This document shows positions 3,719 through 26,555 of a stretch of DNA of 32,757 nucleotides, one piece after another. Origin of the DNA: Candidatus Bipolaricaulota bacterium. Its GTDB lineage: Bacteria > Bipolaricaulota > Bipolaricaulia > UBA7950 > UBA9294. The notes beneath the pieces were generated by a model. That model saw nothing but the letters and a program-made list of their open reading frames with translations, did not search any database and was not told where the DNA came from. The number at the start of each line of letters is the position of its first letter. The first letter of the stretch is position 1. The position numbers were made by a program, and so were the translations under genes. The stretch spans positions 1-32,757 of the forward strand of contig JAGGSO010000102.1 in assembly GCA_021159055.1 (NCBI GenBank). The letters are read 5' to 3'.

Positions 3719-5037
3719 TCATCCTCCTTTCAATTTCTCGGCGATCGCCTCTGGTTCGAGGGCGATCTCCGTCTCCTTACCGGTTTCCATCTCCTTCAGC
3801 CGTGCCGTGCCGGTTTTTACCTCGTCCTCTCCGATGACGATCACGTAGCGCGCCTTGATCTGGTCGGCGTACTTCATCTGCTTGCGCAACGACCGGCCGC
3901 GGTAGTCGAGGTCGACCCTGATTCCCTGCCGCCTGAGCGCGTGCGCCAGTTCCACCGCTGCATTCCGCGCCGCATCCCCGATGGTGACGAAGAAGAGGTC
4001 GACCCCGCTGCCGGATTCCGGCAGGAGTCCGCGCGCCTTGAGCACCAGGATCAGCCGCTCCATCCCACCAGCGAACCCGACTCCCGGAGTAGGAGGGCCT
4101 CCGAGCTGGGCCACCAGCCCGTCGTACCGCCCCCCGCCGAGGAGGGCGTCCTGCGCCCCCAGGTCCGTGGAGACGAGTTCGAATACGGTGCGCGTGTAGT
4201 AGTCGAGCCCGCGCACGAGCTTGGGATGACGAGCTCGAATACGGTGCGCGTGTAGTAGTCGAGCCCGCGCACGAGCTTGGGATCGATCCGGTAGGGGAGG
4301 CCGAGCTGATCGAGGTAGCCCTTGACCTTGTCGAAGTGGTCGCGGCACTCGTCGCACAGGTAGTCGACGCTCCCCGGCGCCCCGTGGATGTGCGGCTGAC
4401 AGATCTCGTTCTTGCAGTCGAGGATCCTGAGCGGATTCTCGGCGTAGCGGCGCTGACAGTCGGGGCACATCTCCTTTATCCGCGGGGCGAAGTACTCCCG
4501 CAGGGCATCGCGGTAGCGGACCCGGTCCTCCGGGCAGCCGATGCTGTTCAGCCGCAGCGACAGGCCCGTGAGGCCGAGCGATTCCATCAGTGTCCAGGCA
4601 AGGTCGATCACCTCAACGTCGAGCGCCGGATCGAGCGCCCCGATCGCCTCCACCCCGTACTGGTGGAACTGGCGCGATCTCCCCTTCTGCGGCTTCTCGT
4701 AGCGGAACATCGGGCCGACGTAGTAGAGCTTCTGGAACGGTTCGGTGTTGAACAGACCGTGCTCGACGTAGGCGCGCACCACCGATGCCGTCGCCTCCGG
4801 GCGCAGCGTCAGGGACCTTCCCTTCTTGTCCGGGAAGGTGTACATCTCCTTGTTGACGACGTCGGTCGCCTCCCCGATCCCGCGCGAGAACAGCTCGGTA
4901 TGCTCGACGATCGGAGGGCGGATCTCGCGGTAGTTGAACGCGCGCGCGATCTCGCGAATCCTGGCCTCCACCGCGGCCCAGTACGGGGTCTCGTCCGGGA
5001 GGATGTCGCGCATCCCCCGCACCGACTCGTACGCCAT
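3719..5037 (-). CDS. hisS: Histidyl-tRNA synthetase, frame broken by a 56-bp tandem duplication
   Basis: A class II aminoacyl-tRNA synthetase that charges tRNA-His. Class II motif 2 is present (FRYEKPQKGRSRQFHQ), as are the HisRS-specific LVRGLDYYTRT block and motif 3 near GFAGGMERL, followed by an anticodon-binding domain. As written, the gene cannot be read through. A 56-bp direct duplication (4172-4283) shifts the frame, so the N-terminal part and the C-terminal part lie in different frames. Deleting one copy gives a continuous 420-residue protein, the usual HisRS length. The ATG at 5037 overlaps the ribH stop as TGATG; a TTG one codon earlier is possible but less likely. Because hisS is essential and normally single-copy, I think the duplication is an assembly artefact or strain mixture rather than a true pseudogene. 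Confidence 0.93.
4172..4283. repeat. 56-bp tandem direct duplication inside hisS
   Basis: Copy 1 is 4172-4227 and copy 2 is 4228-4283, immediately adjacent. They differ only at 4178 (t) versus 4234 (c), which is a synonymous GAA/GAG difference in hisS. The flanking bases do not match, so the unit is exactly 56 bp. It encodes the LVRGLDYYTRTVFELV block. 56 is not a multiple of three, so the duplication breaks the reading frame. Confidence 0.95.
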
Positions 5038-5501
5038 CAAAGCTCCTTCAGCAGGTTCATCATCTCGATCAAGGCCTCGGCCGCCTGGGCTCCCTTGTTC
5101 CCGAGCTTGGTCCCGGCCCGCTCGATCGCTTGATCGATCGTGTCGGCGGTGATCACCCCAAATGAGATCGGAACGTCGACCTCGAGGTTGAGGCGGGCGA
5201 GCCCCTTGGTGATCTCGCTTGCCACGTACTCGAAGTGCGGGGTCGCCCCCCGGATCACTGCGGCAAGCGCGATCACCCCGTCGTAGCGGCCGGAGGCGGC
5301 CATCCGCTGCGCCGCTTTCGGAACCTCGAACGCCCCCGGCACCCAGGCGACGTCGGTCGCTTCTTCCTCCACCCCGGAGCGGCGCAATCGGTCGAGGGCG
5401 CCGTCGAGGAGCCTTCCCGTGATCAAGTCGTTGAACCGGGAGACGACGATCCCGACCCGCAACCCCGCTCCGATGAGACTTCCTTCGTATACCTTTCCCA
5501 T
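5037..5501 (-). CDS. ribH: 6,7-dimethyl-8-ribityllumazine synthase
   Basis: A 154-residue lumazine synthase, the typical family length. It condenses 5-amino-6-ribitylaminouracil with 3,4-dihydroxy-2-butanone 4-phosphate, the penultimate step of riboflavin synthesis, usually in a hollow 60-mer or pentamer in the cytoplasm. Hallmarks are VVSRFN near the N-terminus, WVPGAFEVP, the [11 protein letters not shown] segment with the catalytic His, and [11 protein letters not shown] followed by an [10 protein letters not shown] phosphate-binding loop. A TAAGGAGGT Shine-Dalgarno overlaps the ribBA stop codon ten bases upstream, and its own stop overlaps the hisS start. Translation is therefore coupled in the order ribBA-ribH-hisS. 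Confidence 0.97.
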
Positions 5502-18924: not shown

Positions 18925-20391
18925 ATGATCGCGAAACCCAAAATGGAAGCCCTACTCGCCTGCGTTGCCGGGATCGGCCTCGCCCTCTCCATGCCCGGCT
19001 TTCCGTTCGGGCCCGTGGTTTTCGTCGCCCTTGTCCCGTTGTTCTTCGGGCTCGGAGGGAGGCGGAGCTTCTGGCGGGGATACCTGGCCGGGGCTGTCTT
19101 CTTCGGGCTCGACCTGCGCTGGGGCCTCACCCTCACCCGATTCAGTCCCCTCGCCGTTCCAGGGATGATCCTCCTTGTCGCCTACCTCGCGCTCTACTTC
19201 GGCCTGTTCAGTTGGGGAACGGAATTCGTCCGCCGTCGGCTCGGGGAGTCCTGGGCGTTCCTCGCGTTCGGACCGCTCCTGTTCACCGGGCTCGAGATCC
19301 TGCGCGCGCACGGCCCGCTCGGATCGTGCTTCTCCGATCTCTATCTCGGACTGTACCGGTTCCCGTCCCTTATCCAGGGGGCGAGCATCGTCGGACCATG
19401 GGGGATCACCGCCGCGATCGTGTTCGTGAACGGGGCGGTCTACCTCGGAATGAAACGGAGAAATGCGGTCTATCTCGCCGCTGCAGCGGGGATGATCGGA
19501 TTGATGGCCGCCGGGCTCCTCCTCCCCACCCCCACCGGGACTCCGATCAAGGCGGCGGTCGTGGCCTCGACCGTCCCTCAGGAGGAGAAGCTCGAGGCCC
19601 GCAACCTCCTTCTGCTCGCTTCGAAGTACGGCTCCCTTGGGCAGGAAGCGGCTGCGCTTCACCCGAATATCATCGTCTACCCTGAGTCGATCCTCCCCGG
19701 GTACATCCTGCAGGATGAGGCCCTGCTCGAACGGTTCTCTTCGCTGGCGAAACAGGGAGGATGCTCGGTCCTGTTGGGAACGGGGGATCTGCGGGCCGGG
19801 AGGATCTACAACAGCGTTGCCTTGATCTCCCCGGACGGGGAGGTCTCAGGGGTGTACGACATGGTTCACCCGGTCCCGTTCGGGGAGTACATCCCTGGTC
19901 GGCGGTTCCTCGAGCGGATCGGGCTCGGGCGGCTCGCTGCCTCCTTCCTCCCGGTTGATCTCACCCCAGGGGAGGGGTTCATCCCGCTCGGAAAAATCGG
20001 GACCCCGATCTGCTTCGAATCGACGTTTCCCGCCCCGGCACGAGGGTTCGTGCGGAACGGGGCCGACCTCCTCGTCACCGTGACGAACGATGCCTGGTTC
20101 TCCGGGAGCTCCGAGCTGCTGGATCACTTCGCGTTTGCGGTCTTCCGCGCGGTGGAGAACCGCCGCTGGGTGATCCAGGCGGCGAACGGCGGGATCTCCG
20201 GGGCGATCGACCCGCGCGGGCGGATCGTGGAGCACACCCGGGATGAACTGGTGTTCGCGGTTAACGCGGAGCGAGAAAGCGGCCGCTCCCCCTACACCGT
20301 GGCGGGGGAACGGCCGCTCTATGCCTGCTTCGGTCTAGTCCTCTTTGTCTCCGGGCTCCTCCGCGTTCACAAATGGAAGCGCGGGAGATGA
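18925..20391 (+). CDS. lnt: Apolipoprotein N-acyltransferase, catalytic Lys replaced by Met
   Basis: A 488-residue inner-membrane enzyme that N-acylates the lipidated cysteine of apolipoproteins, the last maturation step. The first roughly 200 residues contain about six to seven hydrophobic segments. The rest is a nitrilase-like periplasmic domain. By comparison with E. coli Lnt (E267, K335, C387) the expected triad maps to Glu254 (in YPES), residue 313 and Cys363 (in PICFES). Residue 313 is Met, not Lys: the text reads YDMVHPVPFGEYIP where relatives have YDKxHLVPFGEYVP. The codon is ATG at 19861-19863, one base from AAG. Either the base is wrong or activity is impaired or altered. No Shine-Dalgarno is seen; the ATG lies close behind a TATCAT that could be a -10 box. 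Confidence 0.93.
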   Translation: MIAKPKMEALLACVAGIGLALSMPGFPFGPVVFVALVPLFFGLGGRRSFWRGYLAGAVFFGLDLRWGLTLTRFSPLAVPGMILLVAYLALYFGLFSWGTEFVRRRLGESWAFLAFGPLLFTGLEILRAHGPLGSCFSDLYLGLYRFPSLIQGASIVGPWGITAAIVFVNGAVYLGMKRRNAVYLAAAAGMIGLMAAGLLLPTPTGTPIKAAVVASTVPQEEKLEARNLLLLASKYGSLGQEAAALHPNIIVYPESILPGYILQDEALLERFSSLAKQGGCSVLLGTGDLRAGRIYNSVALISPDGEVSGVYDMVHPVPFGEYIPGRRFLERIGLGRLAASFLPVDLTPGEGFIPLGKIGTPICFESTFPAPARGFVRNGADLLVTVTNDAWFSGSSELLDHFAFAVFRAVENRRWVIQAANGGISGAIDPRGRIVEHTRDELVFAVNAERESGRSPYTVAGERPLYACFGLVLFVSGLLRVHKWKRGR

Positions 20392-20428: not shown

Positions 20429-21751
20429 TTACCTGCGTGACGCGGGCGACAGGTTGTCCCCGGTCGTCGTCAGCTTGGTCACCGATCCGTCGGCGAACGA
20501 CACGAAGTACAGGTTGAACGAGTTTGTCCCGTCCTTCCGCACGAACGCCATCCCGGAGCCGTCCTCGAGCCAGTACGGGCAGAACTCATCATCACTCGAG
20601 GTGATCGTGCCGGCGGTCACCGGGCTGGCGAGCAGTCCGTTGACGTAGTCCTCCAGCGTCTCGGCGTTCGTCCCATCGGAGTCCATCACGTAGATGTCGA
20701 TGTTCCCACTCTGATCAGTCGAGAACGCGATCTTGCTCCCGTCCGGGGACCAGGCTGGCTTGGAGACCCCGGCGTTCGGCGGCAGGTTGAGTGCAGTCCC
20801 CAGGGTCGCCGGATACCCGGCCGAGGAGACATCGCCGTCGCGCCCGGTCGAGTCGTAGAGCTCGGTTGCAGTGGCGGTCGCGCTATCCCACTTCCAGATC
20901 GAGCTTCCACCGCTTGCGTTCTTATCGGAGACGAAGACGATGTCGTTATCGATCGGCGAGTAGGCCGGGGCGATCGCCCACGACGGGCTCTGGGTCGTCA
21001 GCTTGGCCTGTCCCGTCCCGTCGGCGTTCATCGTCCAGATCTCCCACGTGGTCGCCGATGGGGTCTGCGCGGCGTTCGATGCATACGCGATCTTCGCTCC
21101 GGTGTACGACCAGCTCGGCTCGATCTGCTGCGATGCGGTTTGAGTGGTGAGCTTCGTGTTGCTCAGCCCCGCCACCGTCATCTTCCAGATGTTCCAGGTC
21201 GTCCCGTCCTCAGCGGCGTACGCGATCTTGTCCCGCGTCCCGCGGAGGAGATCGGGGAACAGCTCGTCGTCAGCCGTGTTGAGGACCACGGCCTGGTCGC
21301 TTCCGTCCGCCTTCATCCGGTAGATATCGTAGTCCCCGTCGCGGTTGCTGGCGAAGTTGATCATCGCCGGACCGATCATGACCGCATCTGTAGCCATCCC
21401 GATCCGCCCGTCGTTGTCCGTCACCGTCAGGGTGACGGTGTACGTCCCGGCCGCGGTGTATTCGTGGGTGATCGCGGTCGCGGTCGTCACGTCCGTCCCG
21501 GTGGCGTGGGGGGAACCGTCCCCGAAATCGAGCTCGTAGCTTGTGATCGTCCCGTCCGGATCGTTGGATTGTGAGATGTCGAACGTGATCGTCACCGGCA
21601 CCTCGTGGTCATCCGTCGGTTGGATGACGAGGAGGGCGATCGGGGCCTGGCCGAAGAACCCGCGGCAGGCGGAGATCCCGGCGAGTACCGCGATCACCAT
21701 GACCGCGATGAGCAGGTATTTCCCTCTCTTCTTGCTTCCCGTTGCAGGCAT
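20429..21751 (-). CDS. Lipoprotein with PKD domain and PD40/TolB-like beta-propeller
   Basis: A 440-residue predicted lipoprotein. A basic start (SKKRGK) precedes a hydrophobic segment and the lipobox ISAC with the acceptor Cys29. A PKD domain covers about residues 40-128 (YELDFGDGS and GTYTVTLTVTD). WD40-like PD40 repeats cover about 130-430, seen as repeated INFASNRDGDYDIYRM-like strands ending in the SPDGSKIAFSTD type. This fold is shared with TolB and usually mediates protein-protein contact in the envelope. The Shine-Dalgarno GAAGGAGGT lies six bases before the ATG. It would be a substrate of the neighbouring Lgt and Lnt. A specific partner is not evident. Its PKD unit resembles those in the large protein at 24-26 kb. 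Confidence 0.87.
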   Translation of the reverse strand: MPATGSKKRGKYLLIAVMVIAVLAGISACRGFFGQAPIALLVIQPTDDHEVPVTITFDISQSNDPDGTITSYELDFGDGSPHATGTDVTTATAITHEYTAAGTYTVTLTVTDNDGRIGMATDAVMIGPAMINFASNRDGDYDIYRMKADGSDQAVVLNTADDELFPDLLRGTRDKIAYAAEDGTTWNIWKMTVAGLSNTKLTTQTASQQIEPSWSYTGAKIAYASNAAQTPSATTWEIWTMNADGTGQAKLTTQSPSWAIAPAYSPIDNDIVFVSDKNASGGSSIWKWDSATATATELYDSTGRDGDVSSAGYPATLGTALNLPPNAGVSKPAWSPDGSKIAFSTDQSGNIDIYVMDSDGTNAETLEDYVNGLLASPVTAGTITSSDDEFCPYWLEDGSGMAFVRKDGTNSFNLYFVSFADGSVTKLTTTGDNLSPASRR

Positions 21752-21885: not shown

Positions 21886-22512
21886 ATGTCGGGGCGAAAC
21901 TTAGACGGGCATTTGGTGTATATTGGGAGCAAGGAGGAAAATGACGGCGTGTACCACAATACAAGCGAGGTGGATCTATTGCGCGCAGCGTTGGCTGGAG
22001 ATGTGGATGCATGGGGGGAGATCGTCCTCCGGTACAAGGACGCGGTCTTCGGGCTGTGCCTTGGGTTCGTGCGAAACCGGGCCGATGCCGAGGACTTGAC
22101 TCATGACACGTTCATCCGCGCCTACGAGAACCTGCGGCGCTACCGGTTGGACAAGAAGTTCTCCACCTGGCTGTTCACCATCGCGTCCAACCTGAGCCGC
22201 AACCGCCTCCGGCACCGGCGCTACCACCCGGTCGTCTCCCCTCCGGATCAGATGGTGGGCGGGACCGACCCGGCCGCGATCGTGGCGCGGGAGGCACGGC
22301 AGGCGCGGGTGAAGGCGGCCCTTGATTCCCTTCCTCCGGGATATCGGGAGCCGATCGTACTTAGGTATTACAACGAACTTTCGTACAAGGAGATAGCTGA
22401 TGTCCTCTCCATTCCGGAGGGGACGGTTAAGACGCGGATCCACCGCGCCAAGGTGATGCTGAAGGAGCGGATGGAGCGCAGCGGGGTGATGAAAAATGAA
22501 GCCAGAGGATGA
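21886..22512 (+). CDS. ECF-family RNA polymerase sigma factor
   Basis: A 208-residue group 4 (extracytoplasmic function) sigma factor. Region 2 is at about residues 35-105 (ADAEDLTHDTFIRAYENL and the KFSTWLFTIASN segment). Region 4 is at about 140-195 (LDSLPPGYREPIVLRYYNELSYKEIA followed by IPEGTVKTRIHRAK, the helix-turn-helix). The ATG at 21886 has GGAGGTGA close upstream. A GTG at 21949 behind AAGGAGG is an alternative that would remove the non-conserved first 21 residues. A GAAACTT with TATATT 16 bases downstream (21896-21924) could be an autoregulatory promoter if the later start is right. The next gene overlaps by 17 bases and has the layout of a membrane anti-sigma factor, so regulated release of this sigma by an envelope signal is expected. 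Confidence 0.93.
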   Translation: MSGRNLDGHLVYIGSKEENDGVYHNTSEVDLLRAALAGDVDAWGEIVLRYKDAVFGLCLGFVRNRADAEDLTHDTFIRAYENLRRYRLDKKFSTWLFTIASNLSRNRLRHRRYHPVVSPPDQMVGGTDPAAIVAREARQARVKAALDSLPPGYREPIVLRYYNELSYKEIADVLSIPEGTVKTRIHRAKVMLKERMERSGVMKNEARG

Positions 22513-23083
22513 CTTGGATAGGCTGTTGCGGGATACCCTGAACCAGGAGGTCGTGCAGCACGCATACCTGCTCGAGGGGTTGGAGGATCGGATACGGAGC
22601 GAACTCGCCGGCCGTCTGCCTCGGGCCGGCCTCGGGGACCTGTTCCGGCGCCTCCTTGCCCCGACGCGGGGAGCGCGGATCGCCCAACTTGCGGTGGTCG
22701 GTGCGACGGCCGTGGTATTCCTCGTCCTCGGGGTGTTCCTCGCCGAGAAGGTACTCCCGACCGGGGGAGGGAGCTTACGCCACGCCGCGGTCGCCGCTGC
22801 AGGAACAACCGATGAAGATGTGTTGTTCGTGATGCCGGCCCCGGACGCCAAGAGCGTCGCCGTGGTGGGGAACTTCAACAATTGGTCCCCCACTCCGCTC
22901 TCCGATCCGGACGGGGACGGGATCTGGACGGCACGGATCCACCTCTCCCCAGGGAGGTACGAATACGCGTTCGTGGTCGATGGCCACTGGTGGGGACAGG
23001 ACCCGCTCGCCGACGACTACGTGCGTAGCTTCGGCCAATACAACTCCGTGCGCTACGTGGGCCGGGCCGGGGAGGGAGCATGA
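22496..23083 (+). CDS. Probable anti-sigma factor with external CBM48-type domain
   Basis: A 195-residue single-pass membrane protein. Residues 1-60 are a charged, largely helical cytoplasmic part. A hydrophobic segment spans about 62-83. The C-terminal part, about 108-188, is a CBM48/isoamylase N-terminal (AMPK-beta glycogen-binding-like) domain with VAVVGNFNNWSPTPL, WTARIHLSPGRYEYAFVVDG and a final WGQDP, including Trp130, Trp144 and Trp165. The positive-inside rule puts the CBM outside the cytoplasm. No His-Cys zinc anti-sigma motif is present (there are no cysteines at all). The anti-sigma role is inferred from the overlap with the ECF sigma gene and the topology. The CBM could sense or bind an alpha-glucan or cell-surface glycan. 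Alternatively it could be a structural E-set domain that no longer binds sugar. Confidence 0.75.
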   Translation: MKPEDDLDRLLRDTLNQEVVQHAYLLEGLEDRIRSELAGRLPRAGLGDLFRRLLAPTRGARIAQLAVVGATAVVFLVLGVFLAEKVLPTGGGSLRHAAVAAAGTTDEDVLFVMPAPDAKSVAVVGNFNNWSPTPLSDPDGDGIWTARIHLSPGRYEYAFVVDGHWWGQDPLADDYVRSFGQYNSVRYVGRAGEGA

Positions 23084-23796
23084 CCCGTGCGATCGCGCTC
23101 GTACTCGGGATTGCGCTCTTGGCATCCGTGGCCGCGGTTGCAGCCACCGCGCCGGACGCCGTGTATCGCGCCCTCTCCGGGATACCCCTCGTTCATCATG
23201 ATGAGATCGTAAAGGCGTTTGAGATCGGATTTTCCCTCGGGAGGCTCTCTCCGGACCGGATGCTCCCGCTGGTGAACCGGCTCGCGGCCGGAGCCGGGAA
23301 CCCACAGGAGAAAGAGGGGATCCTCCTCGTGATCGCGCAGGCGTTGGAGGACGATCTCCCGGTCGACCTGCTCGTGGACAAGGCGGAGGAGGGGCTCGCC
23401 CGTCGGGTTCCGCTTGCGGTGATCCTGGACGGGTCAGTGGGGCAGTCGCGGATCTTGGGGCTCATCCAGCGCAAGGAGATCTTGGAGGCGGTGCGGGATC
23501 TCCTCTACTCCAAGGGGATATTCTCCGCCTCGGGGAAGGGAAAGGCGGTCGCCACCTATCTCCCGATTGGGAGATTCGACCGAATTGTGACCGAGGTTGC
23601 TGATGTGTTGTGCGATTACATCGAATCGGGCGGGAGCCCGTTCGACGGACACGTGATTTACGGGGATGTTCAGGCCCGGCTTGAGACTCTATCCCAACTG
23701 TGCGAGCCGCCGTTCCTACCTGAGGATGCGGCGCTCGTGTTGGCGAGGATCTCGGCCGGCGATTTGACGAGCGTCATTCTAAAGGTACTAAAATGA
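23080..23796 (+). CDS. Secreted protein of unknown function
   Basis: A 238-residue protein that I do not recognise. A signal peptide is clear (residues 1-22, a long alanine-rich hydrophobic core ending near VAAVAA). The rest is mainly helical and soluble-looking, with one cysteine pair in the C-terminal half (Cys204 and an earlier one near DVLCDYIESG). The ATG overlaps the upstream stop (ATGA), so it is translationally coupled to the ECF sigma/CBM48 pair. The name cannot go beyond the operon context: a periplasmic or surface partner of the signalling system. Confidence 0.72.
   Translation: MTRAIALVLGIALLASVAAVAATAPDAVYRALSGIPLVHHDEIVKAFEIGFSLGRLSPDRMLPLVNRLAAGAGNPQEKEGILLVIAQALEDDLPVDLLVDKAEEGLARRVPLAVILDGSVGQSRILGLIQRKEILEAVRDLLYSKGIFSASGKGKAVATYLPIGRFDRIVTEVADVLCDYIESGGSPFDGHVIYGDVQARLETLSQLCEPPFLPEDAALVLARISAGDLTSVILKVLK
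23764..23791 (+). promoter_or_regulatory. Possible promoter of the PKD surface-protein gene
   Basis: TTGACG (23764-23769), 16 bases, TACTAA (23786-23791), within the end of the upstream gene. An alternative -10 is TAAAAT with a 19-base spacer. A strong Shine-Dalgarno AAGGAGG follows at 23801-23807. Confidence 0.45.
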
Positions 23797-23812
23797 CAAA
23801 AAGGAGGAAACA

Positions 23813-26508
23813 ATGAATAAACGAAGTTTAACGGTACTGGTTCTCCTCGGGCTGATCAGCCTGTTCGGGCTGGTCGCGTTCGGGGACAGCAACGCCCCGG
23901 TCGCCCCGAAGGGGATAATCCCCACCCCGCCGGAGAGCGACGCTCTCCAGGTGCAGATCTGGGTCGACAAGGGGGCGTACGCGGTCGGAGAACCGATCAC
24001 GATTCACTACCGGGTGAACAAGCAAGCGTACGTGTACATCTGGGACATCGAACCGGACGGGACGGCGCATCCCCTGTTCCCCAACACCCGCCCGGGCGGT
24101 GATCAGAACTACGTCGGACCGGGGGAGCACGTCGTTCCCGGCGATTGGAAGGTCGCTCCGCCATTGGGGACGGAGTATCTTCAGATCCTCGCCACCACCA
24201 CCCCGATCGATCTGTTCTCGCTCCGCCGTTGGGGACGGAGTATCTTCAGATCCTCGCCACCACCACCCCGATCGATCTGTTCTCGTTCATGACAAGCGAT
24301 CCCGATCAATTTCGGCAGCAGGTACAGGCGCACGTCCTCGGGATTGTGCCGGTGGAGGAGCGGAGCTGGAACTTCACCAGCTTCGAGATCGTCTCCGGCA
24401 CCCCGCCTGCATACGGGACTCTCGTCATCAACTCGACTCCGAGCTTCGCGTTGGTTTATCTCGATGGCGTATACGTTGGGTACACTCCGCGCACGGTGCA
24501 CGTCCGGCAGGGCTACCACCAGCTCCTGGTGCGCAAGGCCGGGTACAACGATTGGGCGAAGGGGGTGTTCGTGATCGCCGGGTTCACCCGCACGATCAAC
24601 GTGAACCTCACCCCGAGCGCCCCGGCGAACCAGCCCCCGACGGCGGCGTTCACCTTCTCCCCCGCAAACCCGATGGTCGGACAGCAGGTCCTGTTCAACG
24701 GGTCCAGCTCTTCCGATGCTGACGGAAGCGTTGTCTCCTATCGCTGGGACTTCGGGGACGGGACGACGAGCGGACCGTCCGGAGCGAGCTCCGTCTACCA
24801 CGCGTTCGCGGCCGCGGGGACATACACCGTCACCCTCACCGTCACCGACGACGGCGGATTGACCGACTCTACGTCGCAGACGGTCCAGGTCGGGGCCCCG
24901 AACCAGCCGCCGGTCGCCGCGTTCAGCTTCTCCCCGGCGCACCCGATGGCAGGTGACTGGGTGCAGTTCGACGGTTCAGCATCGTTTGACCCCGACGGAA
25001 CGATCACCGCCTACTCCTGGAACTTCGGCGATGGTTCGACCGCGAGCGGGGTCAGTCGCTACCATCAGTTCACGGCACCGGGGACGTACACCGTCACCCT
25101 CACCGTCACCGACAACGGCGGGTTGACCAACTCCACCACGCAGACGGTGCAGGTCGGTAGTCCAAACCAGCCGCCGGTCGCCGCGTTCAGCTTCTCCCCG
25201 ACGCATCCGGGGGTCGGCCAGTGGGTGCAGTTCGATGGATCGGCGTCGTTCGATCCTGACGGCTCTATCACCGCCTACTCCTGGAACTTCGGCGACGGTT
25301 CGACCGCGAGCGGGGTCAGTCGCTACCACCAGTTCACGGCGCCGGGGACGTACACCGTCACCCTCACCGTCACCGACGACGGTGGGTTGACCAACTCCAT
25401 CACGCAGACGGTGCAGGTCACCGCCCCGAACCAGGCCCCGACGGCGGCGTTCAACTACTCCCCGACCAACCCCGGAGTGGGGGCGTGGGTGCGATTCGAT
25501 GCATCCAGTTCCGCCGATCCGGATGGGTCGATAACGGCCTATTCCTGGAACTTCGGCGACGGGAACACCTCGACCACCGGTCCGGTCGTCTACCACCAGT
25601 TCACGGCGCCGGGGACGTACACCGTCACCCTGACCGTGACCGATGACGGTGGACTGACGAACTCCGTCTCCCACACCGTGCAGGTCGGGCCGACGAACCA
25701 GCCGCCGGTCGCTGCGTTCAACTATAGCCCGCCTGCCCCGAATGTGGGTGAGGCGATCACCCTGAATGCCGCGGCATCCTACGACCCGGACGGATCGATC
25801 ACCGCCTATCGCTGGGACCTCGACGGCGACGGGGTCGACGATACGACAGGGCAGATCATCTCCGTCCGCTACTACAACCCCGGGGTGCACCAGGTGCGGC
25901 TCACCGTGATCGACAATCAGGGGCTGTCCGCCTCCACCACCCAGGGAATCATGGTCGGTGCCGGTGGCGGGGTCCCGGGACCCGGACCGGCGATGGACGG
26001 AACCCCTGGGATCTTCGTATGGGGTACCGACACCTGGCACGTGACGGTTAACGCCGGGACCGGCTGGACCAGCCCGCACGCTTACCGACTCGAGCTCCGC
26101 ACCGACGGATCGTTCACCAACGTCAACCGCTCAGAGAGCGGCGGGGTCGCCCCAATGGGGGTCATCCCGTCCCCGTCCGACAGCGGCAAGACCCTCGTCT
26201 TCGACGGGAGCCTGCAGCAGGGGCGCGTCGACTACACGTTCAAGGTCTCCGGATCGAAGAGCATCTACATGAGCCTGAAGCTGGACGTGGACGGCAACGG
26301 TACCCTGGATGAATCACCCGGGTTCATCCACCTGCGGGACCTGATGGTTAACCCGCCGACCGCTCCGTTCGTCGTCGGACTCCCCCAGGGGAGTTCCGGG
26401 CCGCTCGTCCCGAGCGTGAACTTCCGGATCGGGCGGGCGCTTCAGTACACGAGCACGGTCCGGTTCGTCATCTACATAACCGACATCGAGACCCTGGAAG
26501 GGATCTAA
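23813..26508 (+). CDS. DUF4384/PEGA/PKD-repeat surface protein, frame broken by a 65-bp tandem duplication
   Basis: A large exported protein, 876 residues if one copy of the 65-bp duplication at 24155-24284 is removed. As written, the frame shifts there: the first part ends after about 137 correct residues and the rest is in another frame. Signal peptide at residues 1-24. DUF4384-like domain at about 38-150 (VQIWVDKGAYAVGEPI and HPLFPN). PEGA domain at about 180-245 (PSFALVYLDGVYVGYTP). Five PKD domains at about 251-693. A C-terminal domain of about 180 residues contains an EF-hand-like DVDGNGTLDE loop. PKD and PEGA modules are common in cell-surface adhesion or scaffold proteins. It is in the ECF sigma operon and is the likely output or target. 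The ATG has AAGGAGG five bases upstream. A rho-independent terminator follows at 26523. Confidence 0.9.
24155..24284. repeat. 65-bp tandem direct duplication inside the PKD protein gene
   Basis: Copy 1 is 24155-24219 and copy 2 is 24220-24284, adjacent. They differ only at 24163 (a) versus 24228 (g), a synonymous CCA/CCG proline difference. The unit covers the APPLGTEYLQILATTTPIDL block. 65 is not a multiple of three, so the frame is broken. Deleting one copy restores it. Confidence 0.95.
24628..25956 (+). repeat. Tandem PKD-encoding repeats, five units
   Basis: Units start near 24628, 24901, 25165, 25429 and 25696, with lengths 273, 264, 264, 267 and about 260 bases. The second and third are close to identical at DNA level, for example the shared CCGGGGACGTACACCGTCAC block. 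Each encodes a PKD domain with the FGDG and GTYTVTLTVTD hallmarks. Such units can change number by recombination or be miscollapsed in assembly. Confidence 0.92.
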
Positions 26509-26522
26509 CCGGAATCGTCAGG

Positions 26523-26555
26523 GCGGGGCCGTATACGCGGCCCCGCTTTTTATTT
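26523..26555 (+). terminator. Rho-independent terminator after the ECF/PKD operon
   Basis: GCGGGGCCG (26523-26531), a six-base loop, CGGCCCCGC (26538-26546), then a T-rich tail CTTTTTATTT. The stem is nine perfect GC-rich pairs. It starts 15 bases after the PKD gene stop. Confidence 0.95.

Follow-up and report, generated by a model that had tools for sequence, protein, structure and literature searches.

Sigma factors of the SigW type recognise promoters of the GAAAC-N16-CGTA class, and the class I anti-sigma domain (ASDI) comprises an N-terminal three-helix bundle together with a fourth helix that binds the sigma factor. Anti-sigma factors which sense glycans outside the cell are known mainly from cellulolytic clostridia, and the SigI/RsgI pairs of C. 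thermocellum, the nearest described system to the one considered here, carry external CBM3, PA14 or GH10 sensors (PMC4711584). The literature that we searched, mostly outside subscription papers, held no paper on a CBM48 or glycogen-binding sensor joined to an anti-sigma factor, and within the same scope none discussed sigma factors of Bipolaricaulota. According to our analysis, a locus in a genome of this phylum (formerly Acetothermia) probably encodes an autoregulated switch of an ECF sigma factor and a membrane anti-sigma factor that governs exported proteins.

The locus lies on contig C102 (32,757 nucleotides, the window) of a 1.62-Mb Candidatus Bipolaricaulota MAG. Its first gene (21949..22512, + strand, GTG start, 187 aa) encodes a sigma factor with regions 2 and 4 alone (Pfam r2 1.8e-17, r4_2 1.6e-19), the architecture by which ECF factors are recognised; TIGR02937 is matched above its cut-off, and the best-scoring NCBIfam model is SigW, with a score below that model's cut-off. 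Upstream of the gene there is an ECF-type operon promoter, GAAAC-N16-TGTATA (21896..21922, + strand; -35 at 21896-21900, -10 at 21917-21922), which resembles the SigW-type class in its GAAAC-N16-TGTA core and is the sole match within the window, where 0.03 would be expected by chance. The motif is found 5' of the sigma gene at a near-constant position across the phylum, in 54 of 83 loci by the strict pattern and in 68 of 83 by a relaxed one, and the AAC in the -35 element of this predicted self-promoter (GAAAC-N16/17-TGTATA in the 54 strict loci) is a further ECF hallmark, here a computed sequence motif. It bears on the gene start as well: the earlier note had let the sigma reading frame begin at 21886, which we do not uphold, since the phylum-conserved promoter falls inside that longer ORF, and a start at GTG 21949, behind a ribosome-binding site AAGGAGG (21931-21937), is the most likely one, the ORF from 21886 being over-extended. 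Considering the position of the promoter, we infer that the sigma operon is autoregulated.

The next gene (22496..23083, + strand) overlaps the sigma gene, as the earlier note had it, with 17 nt in common, and encodes our candidate for the membrane anti-sigma factor: a predicted cytoplasmic N-terminus (residues 1-60), a single transmembrane segment (residues about 65-85, nt 22688-22750, + strand) and a CBM48/AMPK1_CBM domain predicted to lie outside (residues 107-188, nt 22814-23059, + strand). Pfam matches to AMPK1_CBM (1.5e-9) and CBM_48 (5.6e-7), both above the Pfam cut-offs, cover approximately residues 107-170, and the same profile is matched by all 49 members of the family that we compared. 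The AlphaFold2 model of the domain is confident (pLDDT above 90), and Foldseek aligned it with the AMPK-beta glycogen-binding domain over 85 columns (E 2.5e-7, rmsd about 1.7 A). Two further statements of the earlier note, that the CBM48 faces outward from a single-pass protein and that the zinc anti-sigma motif is missing, agree with the family-wide comparison. In 45 of 49 homologues the stretch ahead of the transmembrane segment carries more positive charge than the one behind it. By the positive-inside rule this predicts the domain to be outside, and we rejected a cytoplasmic CBM48; the HxxxCxxC motif occurs in 0/49, and a zinc anti-sigma factor was likewise rejected.

The putative anti-sigma function of this protein may be considered from its N-terminus and from its genomic setting. 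The model places helices at residues 4-26, 29-38 and 46-53 before the transmembrane segment, with pLDDT mostly 58-81, and the gene lies directly beside an ECF gene, which is one of the marks of ASDI proteins. One may suppose instead that the CBM48 protein is a co-transcribed surface protein, and that the sigma factor is controlled transcriptionally or by another protein. Such a view could appeal to the low confidence of the model over residues 1-60, to the Pfam search, in which no anti-sigma domain was recognised in the N-terminus among the 49 members (one of them hits RskA_C weakly), and to the covariation between the sigma factor and the CBM48 protein, which in a set of little power (85 pairs, Neff 49) was not centred on the N-terminus and gave top pairs reflecting clade differences. 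We consider it improbable, as the layout of overlapping genes and N-in single-pass topology typical for sigma-anti-sigma pairs is conserved, the N-termini share a conserved motif L-x2-LLR...LxGLExRV, and the CBM48 gene is the sole candidate between sigma and the third gene. Moreover, zinc-free anti-sigma factors are no rarity, making up about 44% of class I (PMC7406223).

The pair of an ECF sigma factor and a membrane anti-sigma factor with an outside CBM48, as proposed in the earlier note, is thus well supported as a prediction by conservation, topology, the autoregulatory promoter and a secretome-biased motif described below. Of 100 Bipolaricaulota genomes, 91 have a match to the CBM48 membrane protein, as do 37 of the 38 good ones; since other CBM48 proteins account for a few of the 91 matches, full-length sensors are somewhat fewer. 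In nearly all compared loci the sigma gene stands immediately 5' of the CBM gene, usually with a 4-17 nt overlap and in some cases abutting, and in Bipolaricaulota a gene for a PKD-type exported protein usually comes next. One Bipolaricaulota family also has ORFs, about 700-800 aa long, that are each matched several times by CBM48 (G068:C77, G085:C24, G090:C85) and possibly encode enzymes or surface proteins with multiple CBM48 domains. The Bipolaricaulota cassette occurred, besides, in public MAG records titled Neomarinimicrobiota (L071, JAJRTG010000172.1, and L113); for L071 that name is probably wrong.

The earlier note suggested a search for the pair in other phyla, and it is present in five Desulfobacterota MAGs (L141, L142, L143, L145, L146), where the sigma gene, the TM-CBM48 gene right after it and a gene for an exported protein similar to the third gene of the window, orf3, follow in the same order. 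By hhalign, the match between the two phyla has E 7e-29 for the CBM regions and E 1.7e-10 for orf3. The Desulfobacterota clusters differ from the window in a divergent N-terminus, in loss of the second CBM tryptophan, in Gly-rich tails of some orf3-like proteins, and in that no DUF4384-PKD gene was seen adjoining them. Two of the loci, in Syntrophobacteraceae (L142, L143), have in addition a second exported CBM48 protein encoded just 5' of the sigma gene.

In the window orf3 (23080..23796, + strand) encodes an exported all-helical protein, modelled confidently (pLDDT 90.8), for which no Pfam family was matched and a PDB fold search gave nothing below E 0.24. It is translationally coupled to the CBM gene, the commonest gap being -4 (a 4-nt overlap), and no homologue was detected in many of the Bipolaricaulaceae-type loci compared. 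Two exported proteins had been noticed downstream of the CBM48 gene, and two there are, orf3 and then a DUF4384-PEGA-PKD protein; the latter is not the most conserved partner, and the trio of sigma, CBM48 and orf3 is shared with Desulfobacterota. Judging by these comparisons of sequence, it is orf3, and not the PKD protein, that is the partner of the sigma/CBM48 pair conserved beyond Bipolaricaulota.

The fourth gene (23813..26508, + strand) encodes an exported protein with DUF4384, PEGA and five PKD domains. It appears as two separate ORFs, DUF4384 at 23813-24292 and PEGA/PKD at 24145-26508; we rejected the existence of two genes, since the break in the frame coincides with a 65-bp exact tandem duplication (24153..24285, + strand), whose length is not a multiple of 3, and relatives (L035, L039, L049) have DUF4384-PKD as a single ORF of about 870-885 aa. 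A second exact tandem duplication of 56 bp (window 4172-4283) splits the histidyl-tRNA synthetase gene hisS into ORFs 4051-5040 and 3719-4468, both on the - strand, and because it breaks an essential gene both duplications are probably assembly artefacts of the MAG. An intrinsic terminator with a 13-pair stem and a T tail (26520..26549, + strand), predicted by a consensus scan alone, would end the operon. On the other side of the sigma gene lies a conserved divergent neighbour, an exported protein with PKD and a TolB-type propeller (20429..21751, - strand) bearing a lipobox-like ISAC, and this gene is adjoined by that of apolipoprotein N-acyltransferase (18925-20391).

We scanned the 100 genomes for the strict promoter motif, with a rearranged pattern as a control (25 sites). 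The set of sites other than the self-promoters comprised 78 fetched sites, two of them present twice, and an ORF start within 200 nt was counted; signal peptides and ribosome-binding sites were called by simple home-made rules. An ORF with a signal peptide stands behind 43 of these 78 sites, compared to 1 of 23 control sites (Fisher p 7e-6, a value that is indicative, given the mutual dependence of the sites and the home-made rule for signal peptides) and 7% of random positions. Many target ORFs begin 10-40 nt past the -10 element. The encoded proteins represent about 11 families unrelated to one another, including Cys-rich exported proteins, DUF4384 proteins, CsgG/CARDB, VIT-VWA, subtilase and chagasin-like inhibitors as well as unknowns, and for four target families the promoter is seen in two bacterial families alike. 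Within the genome of the window the strict motif is confined to the operon site, and genes orthologous to the targets lie behind near-consensus sites at a distance of 50-96 nt. The same promoter precedes standalone genes for DUF4384 proteins that are homologous to the DUF4384 of the window. A control of the PKD/PEGA surface protein, suggested earlier, is therefore upheld in so far as surface proteins are the predicted targets of this secretome-biased motif, with PKD/PEGA being one among several. Other ECF sigma factors could share GAAAC-N16/17-TGTATA. Small exported Cys-rich proteins with CCCCC runs and FlgD-Ig-like features (L182, L231, L258 and relatives) were repeatedly observed behind a promoter of the sigma type.

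The near-universal sigma/CBM48 pair and a promoter before many exported-protein genes give this system the look of a core surface-sensing switch. The computed evidence consists of the order and overlap of the genes, the topology signal, the fold of the CBM48 domain, its presence in nearly the whole phylum, the conserved upstream motif and the enrichment of this motif before signal-peptide genes; from it we infer the following course of events. In the resting state, the CBM48 protein would bind the sigma factor through its short cytoplasmic N-terminus and keep it at the membrane. A ligand outside the cytoplasm, most likely a glycan, or an altered state of the envelope would act on the CBM48 domain, and the sigma factor would be set free, probably via regulated intramembrane proteolysis, which the presence of a member of the M50 site-2-protease family allows. 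Free sigma, if the motif indeed belongs to it, would then transcribe its own operon, that is sigma, anti-sigma, orf3 and the DUF4384-PEGA-PKD gene, and also other exported-protein genes from GAAAC-N16/17-TGTATA promoters.

What the outside domain perceives may be approached through the residues that bind glucan in AMPK. The equivalent of AMPK beta1 W100 is W130 in the window protein, and tryptophan is found here in 47 of 49 members; for W133, 46 of 49 have a tryptophan at residue 165 or 166, and N183, the counterpart of N150, is kept in 29 of 49. Together with the presence of the domain in every member, this conservation makes the sensing of an alpha-glucan plausible from the sequences. A specific recognition of alpha-glucan, whether starch, maltodextrin or a glycogen-like surface polymer, is nevertheless somewhat doubtful, as the position of K126 is taken by A158 here and by Ala or Gly in almost all of the 49, the Desulfobacterota anti-sigma factors keep W100 and have lost the second tryptophan, and the predicted targets are surface proteins and not amylases. 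We rejected the presence of GH13 as a proxy for such a ligand, no link to the sensor being seen: GH13 was not found in the sensor-bearing groups f3 and f1 g7 and g10, so the sensor does not track GH13 metabolism. In view of the replaced K126, the lost tryptophan and the sensor groups with no detected GH13, alpha-glucan is one option of several, and a protein partner, for instance orf3, deserves equal weight. The outside domain would in the latter case be an E-set scaffold for orf3 or an outer-envelope lipoprotein, reporting the state of the envelope or of secretion. This is a real possibility, if short of an even chance; it is in keeping with orf3 being exported, coupled to the CBM gene and co-conserved in two phyla, with the separate exported CBM48 protein beside the pair in Syntrophobacteraceae, and with the mixed exported proteins of the predicted regulon, whereas the aromatic glucan-site residues are more conserved than a pure scaffold requires, and orf3 itself escaped detection in the Bipolaricaulaceae-type loci mentioned above.

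Taking the switch of sigma and anti-sigma as our preferred reading, we tentatively suggest that an outside CBM48, serving an ECF anti-sigma factor as its sensor, sets the composition of surface and exported proteins via GAAAC-N16/17-TGTATA with orf3 as an obligate partner, and that it may be a part of core signalling in Bipolaricaulota, shared with Desulfobacterota. If true, this would extend the idea of external glycan sensing by anti-sigma factors to an ECF sigma factor with a CBM48 sensor, near-universal in a phylum that is largely uncultured. Bipolaricaulota, a poorly known phylum, would gain a first predicted regulon and promoter. It would also name the uncharacterised exported orf3 family as a conserved partner, and the question of the ligand can be tested directly on small soluble domains.

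In comparison to known systems, the sensor domain shares with the AMPK-beta glycogen-binding domain and CBM48 its fold and most residues of the glucan site; it differs in the change of K126 to Ala, in being fused to a transmembrane helix with a predicted extracytoplasmic location, and in that neither a kinase nor a GH13 enzyme is attached. The system is similar to SigW/RsiW of Bacillus in having SigW as the closest NCBIfam model (below cut-off), a membrane anti-sigma factor and a protease of the M50 family, and is unlike it in the missing zinc motif, the CBM48 sensor, and another regulon and phylum. With SigI/RsgI it shares a membrane anti-sigma factor with a cytoplasmic N-terminus, one transmembrane segment and an external carbohydrate-binding domain (PMC4711584), as well as overlapping genes, an autoregulated sigma factor and exported targets. 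Membership in the RsgI family was rejected, since the partner is an ECF factor and the RsgI_N domain had no Pfam match in the window protein or the 49 members. Unlike in SigI/RsgI, the sigma factor here is a two-domain ECF and not SigI, cellulosomal enzymes are not among the targets recognised, and the place of CBM3, CBM42, PA14 or GH10 outside the cell is taken by a domain of the CBM48/AMPK type.
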